From Coemansia sp. RSA 922 (taxonomy: Eukaryota > Kickxellomycota > Kickxellomycetes > Kickxellales > Kickxellaceae), in the NCBI GenBank assembly GCA_027577415.1, contig JANBQS010000021.1, forward strand, positions 1 to 60,242: 60,242 bases of DNA, in the 5' to 3' direction. Numbering within the stretch: the first letter of the stretch is position 1; each line of letters starts with the position of its first letter. Of the stretch, positions 9,898 to 26,405 are shown one piece after another. The position numbers were made by a program, and so were the translations under genes. Below the pieces are notes generated by a model. The model was not told the origin of the DNA. It was given only the letters and a program-made list of their open reading frames with translations, and searched no databases.

Positions 9898-10859
9898 GGT
9901 ATCAGAACGAAGGTGCAATTAGTAAATAGTAGAGGAGGAAAAAAAAGAAGAAAAAAAAAAGGAACAACGTAAAAGAAGAGGAGAGATAGCGATCTTACAA
10001 TCTTGCTGACTCACACAGGCCAAAGCGCCAATCAATCACGCGTTCAGCCTGCTGTGTACACAGCCGGCTGTGAGTGTGCGAGGATGGATGAGTGAGTGTG
10101 TGGGTTAGAGGCTCTGAGTCCACCTTTAAAATTTCCCAAAACAAAGAATGGGCTGCCGACAATGGCAAGGGTCAGAGACTGGAAAGACATTAGCAGCAGA
10201 TCGCAGTTACCCACAACCAGCCACCCGCCTAAACAGCCTCATAAATCCCCCGCGACAACCTCTTGCCCGCATGGGGCCCTTATGGACGCTGAACCAGAAA
10301 TACAGAACGAATCTGCACAACTGTATGCGCCACTTATAGTGCTATAAAGTGAATTCTGGAAAAATCCAAAAAAAAAAAAACACGCAAGCACAAATCCAAC
10401 AAACCAACAGCAGTTCTTCTGTCAGTAATCTTGACCTACAACAAACAAGCACACATATGCACATATGCACATACGCATAACTACTGTTAGCAACCATATA
10501 TATACATGCAAAAAATCCACAGATAGTCAAAAAAAATCCACAATATATAGCAAATTCAGTCCAAAAAAGAAAAGAATATTTCACTGGAGTGGGAAGCATG
10601 GGCCCTTTTATAGCTGTTATACTCCAACTCTGTTCTCCCTCTCCCATTTGCTTACAGACAAAAAAAACACTTTTGCCCCCTCTCACCAATCACTACATTT
10701 TCTTGCTTTCTCTTGTACACCTGCTGACATCACCAAATAAAAAATGTATTACCCAATCAAAACCTTAAAATGTTCAAAAGAACTTAGCGAGATTCAGGTT
10801 CTCTTAGACATGTTTTATTCTTGCAACTTTATACTCTTTTGTTTTATTGACAACTCAAT
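9898..10859. other. AT-rich intergenic region between HOM2 and the Fanzor gene
   Basis: About 960 bp without a convincing gene. The HOM2-proximal part carries purine and poly-A runs and a CCAAT box (near 10030). The Fanzor-proximal part (10340-10740) is AT-rich, with A-tracts, a short AAAAATCCACA sequence repeated near 10508 and 10537, and CATATGCA repeats near 10453. It probably holds both promoters and the left edge of the Fanzor-bearing insertion. I could not identify a terminal repeat or target-site duplication. Confidence 0.4.
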
Positions 10860-13800
10860 ATGGCACTACCTGGTAAAGAACAACCAGACCCAAGGGCTGG
10901 GCATTGGTGGAAAGATTTCTGCCATGTCTTACGCATGAGCTTAAGCTCAGTTTTCAAAAATGACAAGGTATTAGATGGAATTGACTTGCTTGTAAGATAT
11001 TCCGCATATTTGCGGTTTGAGGCAAGTCAATTATTCTTGCTGTTTTTGCAACGCAAAATGGAGTACAGAGGAAAACTTCCTCTGATCTCTGAAACGACTT
11101 TTAATCATATGCTGATTATGATTCGCAATGGTCGCAAGGCCAAAGCAAAGATTAAGTGTCCTCTAGAAAGGGCAGCATTTAACGAGTAAGTAATTTTACT
11201 ATTTATTTATTTATACACTAAAATTTACACAATGTATACAACTTAACTATTAATCAAATGTGAAGAAAAGTTCATTTTATATTTTGTATAGATACTATGA
11301 AACGTATGCGCCCCCTCCTATCAGTCCAGGTTCATTTGTTGGCAGGCCAGGGTATTCTGGCCCAGGCCCCCATCCAGCCGCCATTCCGTATATCATGCAT
11401 TATATACTCAACGATTATATGCAAGATTTACGAATGCATTTACTATGCAATCTACCTCTTATGGTTCGTCGGATTATGGTTGCCGAGCTAGCAAGCGAGG
11501 AGCTGGCTAGCAGACAGAGTGCTTTTGTAGGGCCGGTTAATCTTGTCGACAGGCTTGGCGATACACCTGAGGCTTGCCTGGCTCAGGGGGATGGGATAGG
11601 TGTCGACCACACTATCCCCGACCGGATCGTCTGCACTCGTTGTGAAGCCGAGTCTAGTCGCAGACAGCACACAGTAAGTAGTTTTGTTCTAATCGTGTTG
11701 ACAATGTGTATATTGTAAATACTTGTTGAACGCTACTAAATTTGATTTACTTATTATTACTACGAATAGCACGCTACTCCAAACATAACCCGTCAACAAC
11801 CCACAAAGTCTGCTGGTTCCAACTCTGCCTCGGACCACAAGGGCAAGGGTGTTGCACAGGACGTTGACGATTCGGTCACTATGGATGGGGATGACTCTAC
11901 TGACGAAGACGGTTTCAATGCAGATTTGGAGCAGGCCATTCACAACAGCCTACTTCCGCAGTCTGACACATGCGCCAGCGATGGTGCTTTAGCTGCTAGC
12001 ATCAATAACAATGGCAGCAGCAGTAGCAGTCGGTACCCTGCGATCCAGCCGTCCACCAACAGCCATCCTAAAAAAGCCGCACATGCGAACGCCAAGAAGA
12101 AAGCAAGGGAGATCAGTCAGCGCGAAAAGGACGCCAGGTATCGCGCAAAAATCATATTCAATCTGCTGAAGAAAGTCGTTGCTACGCAGGTCGACGACGA
12201 TGACAACAAGGGCAAAGCGGCTGACGACGACGACGATGACAATAGAAAAAATTGGAGCCCTCCTGATGGCGTTGGTAACGATAACGATGATGATGACGAT
12301 GATGATGATGCTGCTGCTGTTAGCGCTACGACTGCCGAACAAGACATGCAGAGATTTGGCGCTGAGGTCGCGGAGGTGCTAAAGTCGGCGAAGAAGAAGA
12401 CCTTTTACCAAGACGCCCTCTCCCTCATGTATCGTCTTATCATCCGGCTGCGTGACTTAGGTGGTAATCCGGTCACACTTGTTCCGCTCTACCACGCGTC
12501 CGCCGGCTATATTACCATAGACACGCGCGGCCGGTATTATATTCTGAACGACCTTGCCAAAACGTCCGACATCGAGTGCCCCGAAACTAATGTCACCAAC
12601 TTCGAGCAACATAGGCTTCAACACTGGCCGGAGAAAATTACGATCCCTCGAAAATTGTTCCTTCAGCCTGGTAAGACTGTGGTCGGGCACAAGACCTACT
12701 TTCGCAACTCGCTCTCTACTGACTGCGTCGGCGCCTCCTTGTTCACCCGTCGCTGGGAGAGTTTCCCAAATGCGCCTAAGGAGCGCGAGTCGGTCAAGAA
12801 GAGGGCCACTCGTCTGGCGAATGCTGCTGCCGAGGCTGCTAGGGCTGCTGCTGCTGCGGCCAGGGGTTGGACGGCTGACCACTTTGACAGAGAGTTTGTG
12901 GGTATTGACCCTGGCCGCAAGTCGATTATGGTCGCACGGCGCCTGCGGGACCCAAACTGGAGATACTCGCTCTCCACGGATGCCTACTACGAGCGGTGCG
13001 GGATAAACGATGACAGGGACGCAGATGCTGACGAGATTGACCGCATCAAGGGGCTCCGCCAGTGGATGTCCAAAATACCAACGGCAAAGACAGCTACGTC
13101 GCAGGAGACGCTGAAACGGCTGCGCTACTTGTACCGGTCTCCGTACTTCCGGGATATGATGGAGACAAACATCGACTTCAAGAGGCGCATCCGTCGGTGG
13201 GTGACCTACAAGCGCAAGCGGAGCTTTATTGCGGAAGTGTGCCATCGGCTGACGGAGGGCCTCGAGAAGCACAAGGCGACGATCTGCTTTGGAGATGGTG
13301 GATTCCCTAACAGCAGCAGTGGTCATCGCGCGAGCATCTCGATGCAGCCCTTTGTTGACTTTTTGCGTCGGGAGGGCTGGCACGTCGTCGAAGTAAGCGA
13401 GTTCAACACTTCGCAAGTGTGCTCTCATTGCTGCCGGCAGTTTGAGGATGACTACTTACCTTACAAGATGTGCGATGTCGGCGACGCTGCCGACGGCCAC
13501 GCCTTCTACTACAAACCGAGCAACAACCATTTCGTTCGCCGGTGCACGCGTTGTCATGTCATCTGGGATAGAGATGGCAACGCCGCTCGTAGCATTGGAT
13601 ATCTCGGTATGCTCGAGTACTATAAGCGTCAGAGACCGCTCTGCTTCATAAAGCGTCTACAAAAGCCACCGGCATACGACGCCAGGAGACTAGCGGCTCA
13701 GGCAGCTCAGGCGGCGGAGAGGGCAGCAGCGGCGTTTGACACTGAGACCCTAACGGCTCCAGTGGATGATGCAGATGTACCATTGTCTAATAGTAAGCAG

Positions 13801-14274
13801 CGTCGTGTCGAACGTCGTGTCGAGCGTCGTGTGACTCGTAAGATGGACGCTAAGCGTAGTCAAGATAGGCAGGCTCAAGAAGTGGCCGATATCCTTGCGT
13901 CTCCTAATGAGTACGTTCAGAGACTGGTTATGGCGCGTCCAGGGCTAGACCCAGAGGCCGAATGGGCGCAAGCGTACGAAAGGGTAACAAAGGGACAGAA
14001 GAAGCAAGACGAAAAGAAGGCGGCGTCTGACAAGGCCAAGACTAAGACCAAAAGGACAGCTGATAGCTTAACGACAGAGGAGCCTGCGCCAAAGAGGAGG
14101 GCCAAGACAACGACGACTGGACCAAAGAGGAAGGCCAAGACGACGACTACTCCCGAGGGGCCTGTGCCAAAGAGGAATTCGCGTAGGAGGACTACTCAGG
14201 AAGAGCCTGCGCCCAAGGAACCTGCGTCCAAAAAGTCCAAGACGAAGAAGGATAAGAATAAGAAGAAAGACTAA
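10860..14274 (+). CDS. Fanzor: eukaryotic TnpB-like RNA-guided nuclease, three exons, apparently intact
   Basis: Exons 10860-11185, 11292-11673 and 11770-14274 (introns 106 and 96 bp; GTAAGT donors, ATAG acceptors; phases 2 then 0). They join into one open frame of about 1070 aa. The N-terminal ~220 residues form a helical region and an acidic/basic linker. RuvC-I is FVGIDPGRKS (Asp616). The usual RuvC-II position reads CFGDGG (Asp745, not Glu). About 35 residues later comes VEVSEFNTSQVCSHC with Glu777/Glu780, fitting the displaced glutamate described for Fanzors. The OrfB-type zinc finger uses Cys787/790 and Cys828/831. RuvC-III is WDRDGNAARS (Asp836/838). The Lys/Arg-rich tail resembles nuclear-localisation sequence. 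Fanzors use a guide RNA made near the 3' end of the element to cut DNA in the nucleus. No partner transposase is adjacent. An in-frame TGA 10 bp upstream fixes the start. Family call strong; activity inferred. Confidence 0.9.
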
Positions 14275-15105
14275 ATAATCTTTTTCAATGATCTCGACAA
14301 TAACAAAAACTCTGCTGTGTCATAAACGGTGTACTTACCAACAATTACTCTAGTTGCCAAAAAAACAAAAGTAAATTACACTATTTTTTAAAAGGCGGCT
14401 AAAGTCTACCTCAGCCGACGTGATCGCAGAGAGCAAAAAGATGAGAAAGAAAGTGCTGTTGTTGAGACAAAAAAAAAATCTTGAGAAATGGAAGAGATGC
14501 ATATTTTTGCACTAGCTCGAAGTCGCACCCAGTCCCGTGATTCGCTGATCCTTGAGTGGTTGGTCCGCGGAATCCGTGACAATGCCTTATTTCTCCGGTC
14601 CTTGCCATCGTCTGCTCTCCTAAATAGCTTTAATTATGCAAGACATATTTACAGGCGATCGGGGGAAAGTGCTTTGGTTTGGTTTCTTTGTTAACAACTT
14701 CTGATTGTAATAAATCTATCTTAGTAAAAGTTATTGTGCCACTGATCAGCCTCCCGTCTGATCCTCGCCCGACGACTCTACTTAGTCTCTCGCCAGCCTT
14801 CCGCCTGGTCTCTGCGACAGCACCAATCAATCACAATTGTTGGCAGGGGCTTCTTGGGCCTGCCAGCGGCGTCGATTAGAAAAGCCCTTTAGGCGGTTGT
14901 CAAATAGTTATCGACTGTATTAAATAAAGGGGTTGTAAAAGTAAGAAGAAGGTATCTATCAAGGCTGCTGTTCCGCACCGGCAGATAATAGTCTGGCAAA
15001 AGGGGGGATGGGCAGCAGATCGATGATCGGAGTGAGGTCGTATCCGGTTAGTACAGCGCTGTGCGTGCCAAAGCAAACGAGAGAAACAACAACAATCACG
15101 CACGC
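14275..15105. other. Fanzor 3' flank: candidate guide-RNA region and element edge
   Basis: About 830 bp with no supported gene. The first 200 bp are AT-rich, with a small hairpin (stem CGGCT/AGCCG, 14396-14400 with 14413-14417). Further on is a stronger one (stem TGGCAGG/CCTGCCA, 14841-14847 with 14859-14865, 11-nt loop). In known Fanzor and TnpB systems the omega/f-RNA overlaps or follows the 3' end of the nuclease gene, so this is where to look. The hairpins alone do not prove an RNA. The far end also contains the 3' UTR of the sulfite oxidase gene. No inverted repeat pairing with the 5' flank was found. Confidence 0.35.
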
Positions 15106-22370: not shown

Positions 22371-24572
22371 ATGGCTCAGAACCAGGGCAGGCGGGCTAGT
22401 AAGCGAGCAGAGGCGCCTATGCGGCGGTTCCGTGAAATGCACTACCACCGGTTCCAGTTAGGCAGTCGTAGCAACATTCACGGAGCGTGTTTGATGCGGT
22501 CACTACTACCCGTACGACTGCCGCGACCTCACACGATGCAAATGATATACACGCACCCGCCGCCAGGGGTCGGGTTTCAGCGGCTGGGGCTGCCACAGGG
22601 ACAGGAGGCCAAGGACCAGGCATCGTATATGCGCATGGCTACCGAGCACGAAGAGGCAGTCATGGGCGAGATTGCCGAGGAGAGGGAGCGCACAGCACAG
22701 TGGCTCGGCAGTAACAAGGCCATTGCGCGCACGCATGTTGTTGTGGCAACGCAGTCGGGGCTGCAGTTTTTTGTAGCAGGGTTTGGATACTGGAACATCC
22801 TCGACATTGACCTCAAGCTGAGTAGCGAATCCTGTGTGGGAGTCAAGGCGTTTGAGATGTGGGCAGCATCACCACCACCACCACCACCACCACAGAATGA
22901 AGACGAGGAGCCAAAGGGCAATGATAGCGAAGAAAGGCCAACAGAGGCCGAAAGTAGGCAGATGGCGGAGCTACCAGTCCTCATCATCGCGCTGACCACG
23001 TACGTCAAGCGACCCAGTGAGGTAAGGAACCGCACAACTGACGAATTGGGAATGTACCGGCTGTACGCGCTAGGGGCTGACTCACTGCCGCCTCTCTCGC
23101 AAGAGTTTGTGGATAAACATGCAGTGACGGCCCGAGGGCCTTTATCGGAAGGCAGCACAAGCAGCAGCCGCAATGAGAGCTTGTCGCCGCCACACGATGA
23201 CCCAAGGCAGGGCCCCCGAGGTGGACCTCCAGCGGAGACAGGAGCACGGCCTGGTCTGGATACCAGCCCAGATGTAGCCTCTGTGGCACAGGCAGAGGCG
23301 TCTGCAGATAGCTTTGGCAGCGACGTTGGTGCCAAGGCATCTGGCAACTATTCCGCGGCAAACACTCAGGGCGAGGACGTGCTGCCCATCAACACGTATG
23401 CGTATCTGGAAGAGCGGCTGTTCAGCCTAAAGGTAAACGAAAAGACAGTGTTCCTGGACCTCGACTACCTGCCGTTCCGCATCTCGCAGGACGTGGCGCC
23501 AGGGATGCCGGCTGTGCTTCTTGTGGCGGGCAACGACAACAAAGTGCACCGGTACGCACTGGGGAGCGATCGCATTGTCGAGATCGAGCCGCTGCTGTGC
23601 CCAAAGACCGACATTCCAATGACATTCACGGCGTTCGATGCGCGAGTGATCGGGCCGTACCACGTCCAAATAACAGCACACCAGGAGTTTGCCGTGGCAC
23701 TGCAGGCCAGCCGGGCTCTGACTAGTGCCGAGATGGCGGTCGAGGCCGAGAAGGGCGGCGAAGGGGATCCTTCGTTGAGGCGGCGGCTGCTTATTGCCGA
23801 CGAGGAGGTTTATGACGCAGCGCCGATTCTAACGACGGTGTTCACGCCAGAGGCCAAGCAGCTGGATCGCACGGCGTTTGACTATGCGATCACGCACCGG
23901 GTCAGCCCTGCGGCGCGCAGGGAGGAGGAGGGCGGCGGGATAGTGGCAGGCGACATCTACGACAGCAAGTGGCCCATTGGCACAATGGGGGCAGCGCGGT
24001 CGCGCCGGGGCGAGGTGGTTGAGGCGGACGGCGACGGCAAGCAGCCTCGCGTGCATGCGATGATTGGGTTTGTCGGCGAGGAAGCGGTGGTGTACCACGA
24101 CGTGGCAGTGGCAGGGCTGGACCCGGTGCCGACGCTCGTGGGCGGAGTGGCGTGCAAGGTGCCGGACACGGCGCCGCACATAGCGGGGCGGCTGGGCGGG
24201 CTGGGCGGGGTGTTTTCGCTGCCTGGAAGCGCCAAGGAGGGCCTGATTACGTCGGTGCACTTTGACGACCTGGACTACAACGGCACAAAGGAGATCATAG
24301 TTGGGACGGTCTCTGGCGCAGTGCTGATCTACAAGGAGGTGGAGGGCAGCGGGTACATGCTGGTGTGGAAGCGGCGGTTCCCAGCGCCGGCGTACGGGAT
24401 ATTCAGCGTGGACATCAACTGCGACGGCGCCAACGAGTTGGTCGTGGTGACGCTGCTGGGCGTGCACGTCATGCAGCCCAACCTGTCTCTGGTGCGGGCG
24501 AAGCTGCTGCGGAAGCTGATTCTGGCCAAGAAGGCTGACATTGGAGACGAGGACGACGACGACAGCGAGTAG
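22371..24572 (+). CDS. Kaptin-like protein (KICSTOR subunit family)
   Basis: A 733-aa frame from ATG 22371; an acceptor-like CATCTAG lies just before it. The C-terminal part has paired beta-propeller/FG-GAP-like blades: ITSVHFDDLDYNGTKEIIVG with VLIYKEV, then IFSVDINCDGANELVVVTL followed by GVHVMQPNL. This matches my memory of kaptin (KPTN), and more loosely ITFG2. Both belong to KICSTOR, which tethers GATOR1 to lysosomes for amino-acid control of TORC1. The first half holds another propeller region (VVVATQSGLQFFVAGFG) and long low-complexity inserts, including a poly-Pro run at about 22869-22893. The tail is acidic. The kaptin name is moderately supported; a generic integrin-alpha-like propeller protein is the alternative. 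Confidence 0.55.
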   Translation: MAQNQGRRASKRAEAPMRRFREMHYHRFQLGSRSNIHGACLMRSLLPVRLPRPHTMQMIYTHPPPGVGFQRLGLPQGQEAKDQASYMRMATEHEEAVMGEIAEERERTAQWLGSNKAIARTHVVVATQSGLQFFVAGFGYWNILDIDLKLSSESCVGVKAFEMWAASPPPPPPPQNEDEEPKGNDSEERPTEAESRQMAELPVLIIALTTYVKRPSEVRNRTTDELGMYRLYALGADSLPPLSQEFVDKHAVTARGPLSEGSTSSSRNESLSPPHDDPRQGPRGGPPAETGARPGLDTSPDVASVAQAEASADSFGSDVGAKASGNYSAANTQGEDVLPINTYAYLEERLFSLKVNEKTVFLDLDYLPFRISQDVAPGMPAVLLVAGNDNKVHRYALGSDRIVEIEPLLCPKTDIPMTFTAFDARVIGPYHVQITAHQEFAVALQASRALTSAEMAVEAEKGGEGDPSLRRRLLIADEEVYDAAPILTTVFTPEAKQLDRTAFDYAITHRVSPAARREEEGGGIVAGDIYDSKWPIGTMGAARSRRGEVVEADGDGKQPRVHAMIGFVGEEAVVYHDVAVAGLDPVPTLVGGVACKVPDTAPHIAGRLGGLGGVFSLPGSAKEGLITSVHFDDLDYNGTKEIIVGTVSGAVLIYKEVEGSGYMLVWKRRFPAPAYGIFSVDINCDGANELVVVTLLGVHVMQPNLSLVRAKLLRKLILAKKADIGDEDDDDSE

Positions 24573-24644
24573 CAATAGCAGTTTATTAAGACAATGTACA
24601 TTTAGAGACCAGGTGCAGGAGAGAGACTAGGTGCAGGAGAGAGA

Positions 24645-26405
24645 CTAGTTGCAGGTGGTCTGCAGGGCCCGCGAGCTTAGGCGCGTAAAGGACACGGCGG
24701 GGGCCAGGGCGCGCAGCTCGGCGACGGTCTGGCGGTGCGAGCGCGCGTGGTTGGTGCAGCACTCGCGCAGGGCCGGGAAGCGCTGGGCCAGCCAGGCCGA
24801 CAGCCACAGCGGATCGGCCAGCACGTCCTCGTCGGCGCGCAGGGCCAGGCGGCGCAGGGCCAGGTGCGGGCGCGGCGGGTTGTCGCCAGCAAACAGAGAG
24901 TCGCTGCGCAGCGTGGCCGACAGAAACGCGAGGCTGGGCAGCTGGTGCACCAGCGTATCGAGGGCCGGGGCGGTGAACGACGCGTAGGGGATGCACAGCG
25001 AGCGCAGGCGGAGGGCGGAGAAGCTATCAGTTGCTGCGGAGTCACCCAAGGCCAGTGAAGAGGTGCCCGGCGAGGCCGGCGGCGACATGCGGCGGAGCAT
25101 GCGGTCGCCAAAGCGCGCGTCGTCGTCAGCACAGCCCAGCAGGCGGCACAGCGCGGCGCCCGCTATGTCGTAGCCGGGCGAGCCGTCGGCGCGGCGCTGC
25201 TCGATGGCCAGGTGCGTCAGGCGCGGCAGGCGGCTCAGCACGCACACCAGCCCAGCAGCCGACAGCCGAGGCCCGGCGTAGTCGAGGCTGTGCGTCACCA
25301 GGCGCTCCAGCCGCGGGCAGGCGAGCGCCAGGGCCTGCGCGTCAACGTCGTCGATGGCCGGCAGAGCCAGCACGCGCAGCGACCCCCAGCAGTGCGCCCA
25401 CACCGGCGCCAGCCACCGGTCGTTCTGCAGCGACACCGCCCCGCGCGCGCTGTCGGCCGCGTTGTCGGCTGCGCGCCACACGTGCCGCACCGACAGCGTC
25501 GTCAGCCTGGGCAGCATGGCCGGCCGGAGCGGGAGCACGCCGTCAGCTCCCACCAGTACGTGCTCGAGCCGCAGCGTGGTCAGCGCGCCCAGGCACGCCG
25601 CCGAGCGCAGCGCCTCGACGCACGCGTGTTCGATGTGAAGCGTGCGCAGCCGCGCCTGCGTGGCGTGCAGAGCAGAAAGAAGCTCGGCCGTGACGTCAGA
25701 CCCTCCCACCGCCAGCAGCCTCAGCTGTCCCGCCATGCGCCGCACAGCCGCCGCCGCCCCCCGCTCGCTCGGCAGCAGAGCCGCCCAGTGCTGGTTGAAC
25801 CCGTACGGCGTGACTGCCAGCCGCGCTACCCGTGTGGCGACGGCGCCCAGCAGCGGCACCATCTGCGCCACAGACGCCGCCTTGTCTCGCAGGTAAAAGT
25901 CGCGGATGCGCGGCGCGTACCGCTGCACAGCTGTGGCAATGCGAATGTGGTCCGAGCTGTCCGAGCTGAACCAGTCGACCGCCACTGCTGCGAGCGAGGG
26001 CCACGTCAGCGCCAGCGCTGCCTCAAGCTCAGCACACACGCCACTGCCAGCACTGTGCCGCCCGCTGTGGTATGCGTCGGACGACCGAAACACCAGCCGC
26101 CGCACATGGTGCCCATGGTGCTGCCGGATCGCTGCCAGCCTTGTGCCATCGCCGCCATGCATCCACCGGCTGCTGGCCACCACCACACGCAGGCCCTGCC
26201 CCAGCGCTGCTGCGCGCCACGCCCGGCTAGTCTGCCTAAGTGCTGACAGCTCGCCGCCTCCAAACGCTCCGGGTGCGTGGTCTCGCGCGCATCCCAGCGC
26301 ACGTGTGTAGTCGCCGCGCTCGACACAGGCGCAAGCCGGGAGCTGCCCACATATTGCGAGGAGTACATCAAACGGAACCCGGTCTAAAGCAGACAGGGAG
26401 GACAT
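24645..26405 (-). CDS. F-box / leucine-rich-repeat protein
   Basis: A 586-aa single-exon protein. It opens with an F-box-like start (LDRVPFDVLLAICGQLP) that is interrupted by an insert of about 27 residues before the closing helix (LSALRQTSRAWRAAAL). Irregular leucine-rich repeats follow (LRTLHIEHACVEAL, LTTLRLEHVLVGAD, LRVLALPAIDDVDAQALALACPRLERLVTH, LRSLCIPYASF). Such proteins usually recruit substrates to an SCF ubiquitin ligase through Skp1; no substrate can be inferred. Codon use is strikingly GC-rich and Ala-rich compared with neighbours. Large families of this type occur in early-diverging fungi. The start at ATG 26405 matches the F-box position. Confidence 0.7.
   Translation of the reverse strand: MSSLSALDRVPFDVLLAICGQLPACACVERGDYTRALGCARDHAPGAFGGGELSALRQTSRAWRAAALGQGLRVVVASSRWMHGGDGTRLAAIRQHHGHHVRRLVFRSSDAYHSGRHSAGSGVCAELEAALALTWPSLAAVAVDWFSSDSSDHIRIATAVQRYAPRIRDFYLRDKAASVAQMVPLLGAVATRVARLAVTPYGFNQHWAALLPSERGAAAAVRRMAGQLRLLAVGGSDVTAELLSALHATQARLRTLHIEHACVEALRSAACLGALTTLRLEHVLVGADGVLPLRPAMLPRLTTLSVRHVWRAADNAADSARGAVSLQNDRWLAPVWAHCWGSLRVLALPAIDDVDAQALALACPRLERLVTHSLDYAGPRLSAAGLVCVLSRLPRLTHLAIEQRRADGSPGYDIAGAALCRLLGCADDDARFGDRMLRRMSPPASPGTSSLALGDSAATDSFSALRLRSLCIPYASFTAPALDTLVHQLPSLAFLSATLRSDSLFAGDNPPRPHLALRRLALRADEDVLADPLWLSAWLAQRFPALRECCTNHARSHRQTVAELRALAPAVSFTRLSSRALQTTCN

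Follow-up and report, generated by a model that had tools for sequence, protein, structure and literature searches.

Fanzors are the programmable nucleases of eukaryotes, known as RNA-guided DNA-cutting enzymes that are carried on mobile DNA. Here we describe a gene of this family in Coemansia sp. RSA 922, at positions 10,860 to 14,274 of a 60,242-nt stretch of contig JANBQS010000021.1 (assembly GCA_027577415.1), hereafter the window. In the parts of the cited papers available to us, structures are listed for fungal Fanzor1s of Spizellomyces and Parasitella, most Fanzor1s are 600-700 residues long, and the catalytic triad of Spizellomyces punctatus Fanzor1 (SpuFz1) is D383, E541 and D606, spaced by 158 and 65 residues (PMC11423790). 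The same text gives a cyclophilin-binding RuvC insertion as a feature of the Parasitella parasitica enzyme, PpFz1 (PDB 9cf1; PMC11423790), and the SpuFz1 locus is described as 2.1 kb long with well-conserved inverted repeats (PMC10432273). Moreover, Yoon and colleagues recognise Fanzors by a DPG motif in RuvC-I combined with a glutamate that precedes the zinc finger by six residues, and describe TDG in the WED region as a characteristic Fanzor1 motif (PMC10711439, available text).

As read from its sequence, the Coemansia gene is an intact, complete-looking fungal Fanzor1 gene with two introns, unusually long and otherwise an ordinary member of the family, and it was probably brought to its present site by a mobile element. 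Its product has 1070 residues, compared with 575-710 in 19 picked homologs (P0048, outside those 19, has 801), and the excess lies mainly in an acidic linker and a basic tail (Table 1). Identity to SpuFz1 (PDB 8gkh, 9ceu-9cez) is about 15%, the triad residues are spaced by 164 and 58, and inverted repeats like those of the SpuFz1 locus were not found here.

The first-pass annotation of this DNA had called the gene a Fanzor and had proposed a profile search, structure prediction and phylogeny as checks. The identification is correct as judged by the protein's motifs: PF07282 matched with 34.2 bits against a cut-off of 26.3, and the DPG motif, the alternative glutamate and the C4 zinc finger are all present. 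Searches of the PDB with the exon-3 open reading frame (ORF) gave no meaningful match as a single sequence and weak matches as a profile (best 9b0l, a TnpB-like protein L79, E 0.0012), and the family was settled by fold search. The match was made with a predicted structure, in which the N-terminal exons were not part of the folded model; a first core model from 8 rows was poor (predicted local distance difference test score 49.2) and was not used. The closest solved folds were the Fanzor1s 8gkh (16.1), 9cey (15.8) and 9cf1 (14.1), followed by Cas12f (12.0) and Fanzor2 9b0l (11.9); Fanzor2 and TnpB (8h1j) matched more weakly than SpuFz1, and the TDG segment of Fanzor1 is present here as TDC. 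The predicted fold thus points to Fanzor1.

In the alignment, Asp616 of the motif Asp616-Pro617-Gly618 is Asp in 29 of 29 homologs that carry no Coemansia name, Glu780 is Glu in 27 of them (one Lys, one gap), and Asp838, which follows Arg837 in the RD.NA motif of RuvC-III, is Asp in 25 (four gaps). Asp616, Cys787/790 and Cys828/831 lie where the first-pass annotation had put them, and the displaced RuvC-II glutamate that it reported can be identified as Glu780. It had also named Asp836/838 for RuvC-III; Asp838 alone is the conserved residue, because residue 836, Asp here and in the nearest relative P0001, is Asn (23 rows) or Gln (2 rows) in those 29 homologs (4 gaps). No conserved catalytic residue is missing, as it had concluded, and since all are present the enzyme may be active. 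The last position of the TDG motif is Cys in this gene and in P0001. All 29 rows that bear no Coemansia name have Gly there, as do P0002-P0005, P0009, P0011 and P0014; the 16 other Coemansia rows together have Gly in 8, gaps in 3 and His or Ala in 5 that are poorly aligned, and the letters of P0013 do contain TDG.

Joining the three exons gives 3213 nt, i.e. 1070 codons and a stop, and the coordinates agree exactly with those first proposed; if the introns are left in, the frame meets a stop after 109 codons. A Fanzor N-terminal profile matched the joined residues 1-236 with E 7.1e-12, crossing the join of exons 1 and 2, whereas the best of 500 shuffled versions scored 3.5. The N-termini of 18 Fanzor homologs that name no organism were chosen for this profile, and 17 of them were used (P0044, in which the WED motif was not found, was dropped). 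A broken copy on another contig of the same genome, C360, is 87% identical over 580 bp that begin ahead of the start codon, take in intron 1 and reach into exon 2; it supports the layout but not the splice sites themselves, because these are changed in that copy. On contig C591, matches to exons 1 and 2 keep their order. Exon 1 and its predicted join to exon 2 are thus supported by the profile match and by the C360 copy, and the only support for the putative intron 2 is the same join in P0001, which is a gene prediction. The database models P0001 and P0002 begin inside exon 2, a plain BLASTP comparison of residues 1-180 with a single Fanzor, P0036, gave no significant match (E 0.78), and the GC content at third codon positions is 0.41 in exon 1 and 0.61 in exon 3.

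The copy had been described as sitting alone, which did not hold: pieces of relatives lie on nine other contigs of the same genome, exon 3 on seven and exons 1-2 on two more. These searches were run exon by exon with only the best candidates scored, and diverged parts or copies could be missed. Exon 3 gave 10 matches, one of them itself, on the seven other contigs; exons 1-2 matched C360 and C591, and weakly C769 and C265 (E 0.02-0.04). Several matches contain stops, and no full-length open second copy was seen, the longest open Fanzor stretches on other contigs being 459, 457 and 414 residues. Searching the genome with PF07282 gave 14 matches, of which the 5 above the cut-off were all at already known loci. 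The ratio of nonsynonymous to synonymous substitution rates (dN/dS) was 0.36 over 168 codons in comparison with the broken fragment on C593, and 0.41 (C593), 0.40 (C193) and 0.33 (C591) in three shorter comparisons; three further pairs (C38, C12, C602-C38) were saturated or between other copies and were not used. These values may be taken as signs of past purifying selection. Duplications were seen among the relatives: on C360 (L068) the broken copy has a second, head-to-head 5′ end that forms an inverted repeat with the first, and on C38 and C292 (L010, L013) about 5.5 kb, including a Fanzor piece and neighbouring ORFs, are duplicated at 90-95% identity.

All homologs that name an organism are from Coemansia. 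In a tree of 43 of the 47 rows (the short P0014, P0016, P0022 and P0045 were dropped), a clade of 15 rows with support 98/95 unites this gene with 14 proteins whose records name Coemansia. Of the hypothetical proteins P0001-P0014 (e.g. GGF41_000531 of Coemansia sp. RSA 2531), 12 stand in this clade or near it, and the gene stands beside P0001 with support 100/99. P0001, whose model lacks exon 1, unlike this gene, represents a cluster of 11 sequences. The two proteins agree at 893 of the 905 residues aligned and differ at 12, and the alignment has one further gap of 11 residues in the tail. Of these 12 differences, six lie in a 30-residue stretch that surrounds the alternative glutamate (positions 13354-13443, residues 765-794). 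Random draws were as clustered in 10 of 100,000 cases, which suggests gene conversion or exchange between copies. Another Coemansia protein, P0007 (Coemansia sp. S146), is Fanzor-like with two of four zinc-finger cysteines lost, and its annotation puts an LSM domain (Lsm7) in the same protein, perhaps because two gene models were merged or through a read-through fusion. A scan of viral contigs for relatives gave 58 stretches that fit the pattern, none of which was confirmed.

The neighbouring genes are a ThiF-rhodanese gene, the aspartate-semialdehyde dehydrogenase gene (HOM2 in the first-pass annotation), a sulfite-oxidase-type gene and a ketopantoate reductase gene. The interval that holds the Fanzor is 5187 bp long, and the next intergenic gaps are 32 and 463 bp. 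The isolation first described did not stand, as repeats adjoin both sides (Table 1), with a further short match upstream of the upstream repeat at 10136-10187. The matches of the 3′ end on C32 and C746 count as one witness because these two are near-duplicates of each other. From 307 bp past the stop codon there is a 52-bp terminal repeat of another Fanzor-bearing element, oriented correctly for it to be the end of such an element. The piece occurs on four other contigs, of which C602, C38 and C292 hold Fanzor pieces and C19 gave no Fanzor match in the exon searches. Since no matching left end was found, no element was drawn. Searching with the 15-base tip of the terminal repeat, allowing up to 2 mismatches, gave 42 matches against 48 for the control, i.e. 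background, and only the 4 exact matches were used. Two inverted pairs were seen as candidate element ends, one of 20 nt (10836-10855 / 14352-14371, 18/20) and one of 24 nt (10155-10178 / 14592-14615, 19/24), and neither was confirmed in another copy. The transposase search covered two families: MULE gave no match with a working control, and piggyBac gave no match, although its control matched nowhere either.

On C602 (L011, 567-3100), a broken Fanzor lies in a 2.5-kb element that has TTAA at both ends and inverted terminal repeats of 74 bp (89%). The loci on C32 and C746 (L062, L063) carry the Fanzor 3′ end and part of the upstream repeat, but the small ORFs found inside, set between internal direct repeats, are unrelated to it, as though the same flanks held other cargo.

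Taken together, we consider it probable that this is a Fanzor1, intact by sequence, that a mobile element brought into the interval and that serves as an omegaRNA-guided DNA cutter favouring its element. The element would have carried the gene between the aspartate-semialdehyde dehydrogenase and sulfite oxidase genes, and its ends would since have been blurred by other repeats. Removal of the two introns would then yield the 1070-residue protein and, by analogy with studied Fanzors, the N-terminal and WED regions would bind a guide RNA (omegaRNA) from the gene's own element, the basic tail would, as its composition suggests, lead to nuclear entry, and the Asp616-Glu780-Asp838 site would cut guide-matched DNA, which may favour the element's spread or retention.

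Several results weigh against this reading. The TDG letters of the WED motif are replaced by TDC, although the segment is present. The tail had been called nuclear-type; it is basic, but its nuclear signal is a matter of composition only. Neither a terminal repeat pair nor a target-site duplication nor a transposase could be tied to this copy. A guide RNA was looked for and not found: Rfam matched nothing in the window, and the folds of seven stretches that cover the 3′ end and the sequence after it were no more stable than shuffles (z 0.0 to 1.1). Among the Fanzor1 structures, GtFz (9cer) and PpFz (9cf0), both 10.7, did not surpass Cas12f or TnpB, and Foldseek gave a TM-score of only 0.45-0.46 to SpuFz1. 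The tree places the gene among Coemansia proteins, but contains no named Fanzor1 or Fanzor2 reference for class placement. Finally, the dN/dS partners are all broken copies, and exon 1 against C360 gave 0.63.

The lack of a guide-RNA-like fold and the change of TDG to TDC in this gene and P0001 would be expected of a relic, whose frame is intact and whose working guide RNA or nuclease activity has gone, and the same holds for the scrambled flanks and for relatives that, where seen in this genome, are all pieces or broken. We think a relic unlikely, as 1070 codons have stayed open with the conserved catalytic and zinc residues, P0001 with its 11-member cluster is nearly identical, and dN/dS against C593 is well below 1. 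A domesticated Fanzor1 with a fungal job, e.g. silencing or defence against other elements, was hinted at when the copy was first described as possibly active or domesticated; the catalytic residues are kept, as that description implied, but the hint of domestication is weakened by the relatives on nine contigs and the flanking repeats. Repeats on both sides and degenerate relatives are what a mobile family would leave, and domestication seems quite improbable even though this is the only full-length open copy seen in the genome, its nearest relative stands for 11 sequences, and dN/dS is below 1. It is just as improbable that one enlarged, spliced Fanzor1 with acidic linker, lysine-rich tail and altered WED motif works as a nuclear host-function enzyme whose element mobility is lost. 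Least probable of all is a partly wrong gene model, in which the true use of exon 1 or intron 2 departs from the drawn structure and a shorter protein results, like the P0001 model: the starts of P0001 and P0002, splicing read from letters and not from RNA, the deviating exon 1 composition and the plain BLASTP result would fit it, but the profile match across the join and the order of exon 1, intron 1 and exon 2 on C360, and of both exons on C591, speak against it.

Table 1. Features of the Fanzor1 gene and its flanks (window positions; strand. where none is assigned)
Feature	Position	Strand	Basis or matches
Exon 1: opens the Fanzor N-terminal region; residues 1-108 plus two bases of codon 109	10860..11185	+	Frame, N-terminal profile, C360 copy
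Intron 1: 106 nt, GTAAGT...TAG, phase 2 (junction 11185^11292)	11186..11291	+	Frame; same layout with changed splice sites in broken C360 copy
Exon 2: completes codon 109 and runs to residue 236, remainder of N-terminal region	11292..11673	+	Frame, N-terminal profile; P0003 aligns across much of exon 2
Intron 2: 96 nt, GTAAGT...TAG, phase 0 (junction 11673^11770)	11674..11769	+	Frame; identical join in P0001
Exon 3: residues 237-1070 and stop	11770..14274	+	Frame, PF07282 match, fold match
Acidic linker of low complexity: residues 237-430, net charge -17, with runs of 4, 6 and 8 Asp	11770..12351	+	Composition
Thr-Asp-Cys, residues 553-555 (Thr-Asp-Gly in other Fanzor1s)	12718..12726	+	Alignment; motif from PMC10711439 (available text)
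RuvC-I Asp616 of DPG motif	12907..12909	+	Frame, alignment
Alternative RuvC-II glutamate Glu780, six residues before Cys787	13399..13401	+	Frame, alignment
C4 zinc finger, Cys787/790 and Cys828/831	13420..13554	+	PF07282, E 2.9e-8; alignment
RuvC-III Asp838	13573..13575	+	Frame, alignment
Basic tail: residues 876-1070, net charge +21	13687..14271	+	Composition
33-bp/11-residue tandem repeat, 1.9 copies, in tail-coding region	14089-14151	+	P0001 longer by 11 residues there
Upstream repeat	10249..10565	+	78-79% on C112, C491, C413; shorter on C34, C125, C32, C746
Last codons and 190 bp after stop	14216..14464	+	About 84% with remnants on C32, C746, match ending at 14464
Dispersed repeat, halves in opposite relative orientation, split by 14582-14633	14499..14823	.	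Genome matches; pieces on C154, C77, C86, C5, C68
52-bp TTAA-ended terminal repeat	14582..14633	+	96-98% to inverted terminal repeats of C602 Fanzor-bearing element; 91-94% on C38, C292, C19
255-bp dispersed repeat	14838..15092	+	Whole or part on ten other contigs

No paper containing both words Fanzor and Coemansia was found in the literature searched, and surveys beyond it may list this gene. The present locus adds an intact, unusually long Coemansia Fanzor1 and its broken relatives to the family. It could show if targeting is altered by disordered extensions of acidic and basic character, and if a copy with no visible element ends can outlive its transposon.

Elsewhere in the window, positions 24001-26000 have a GC content of 0.66-0.73, well above the rest.
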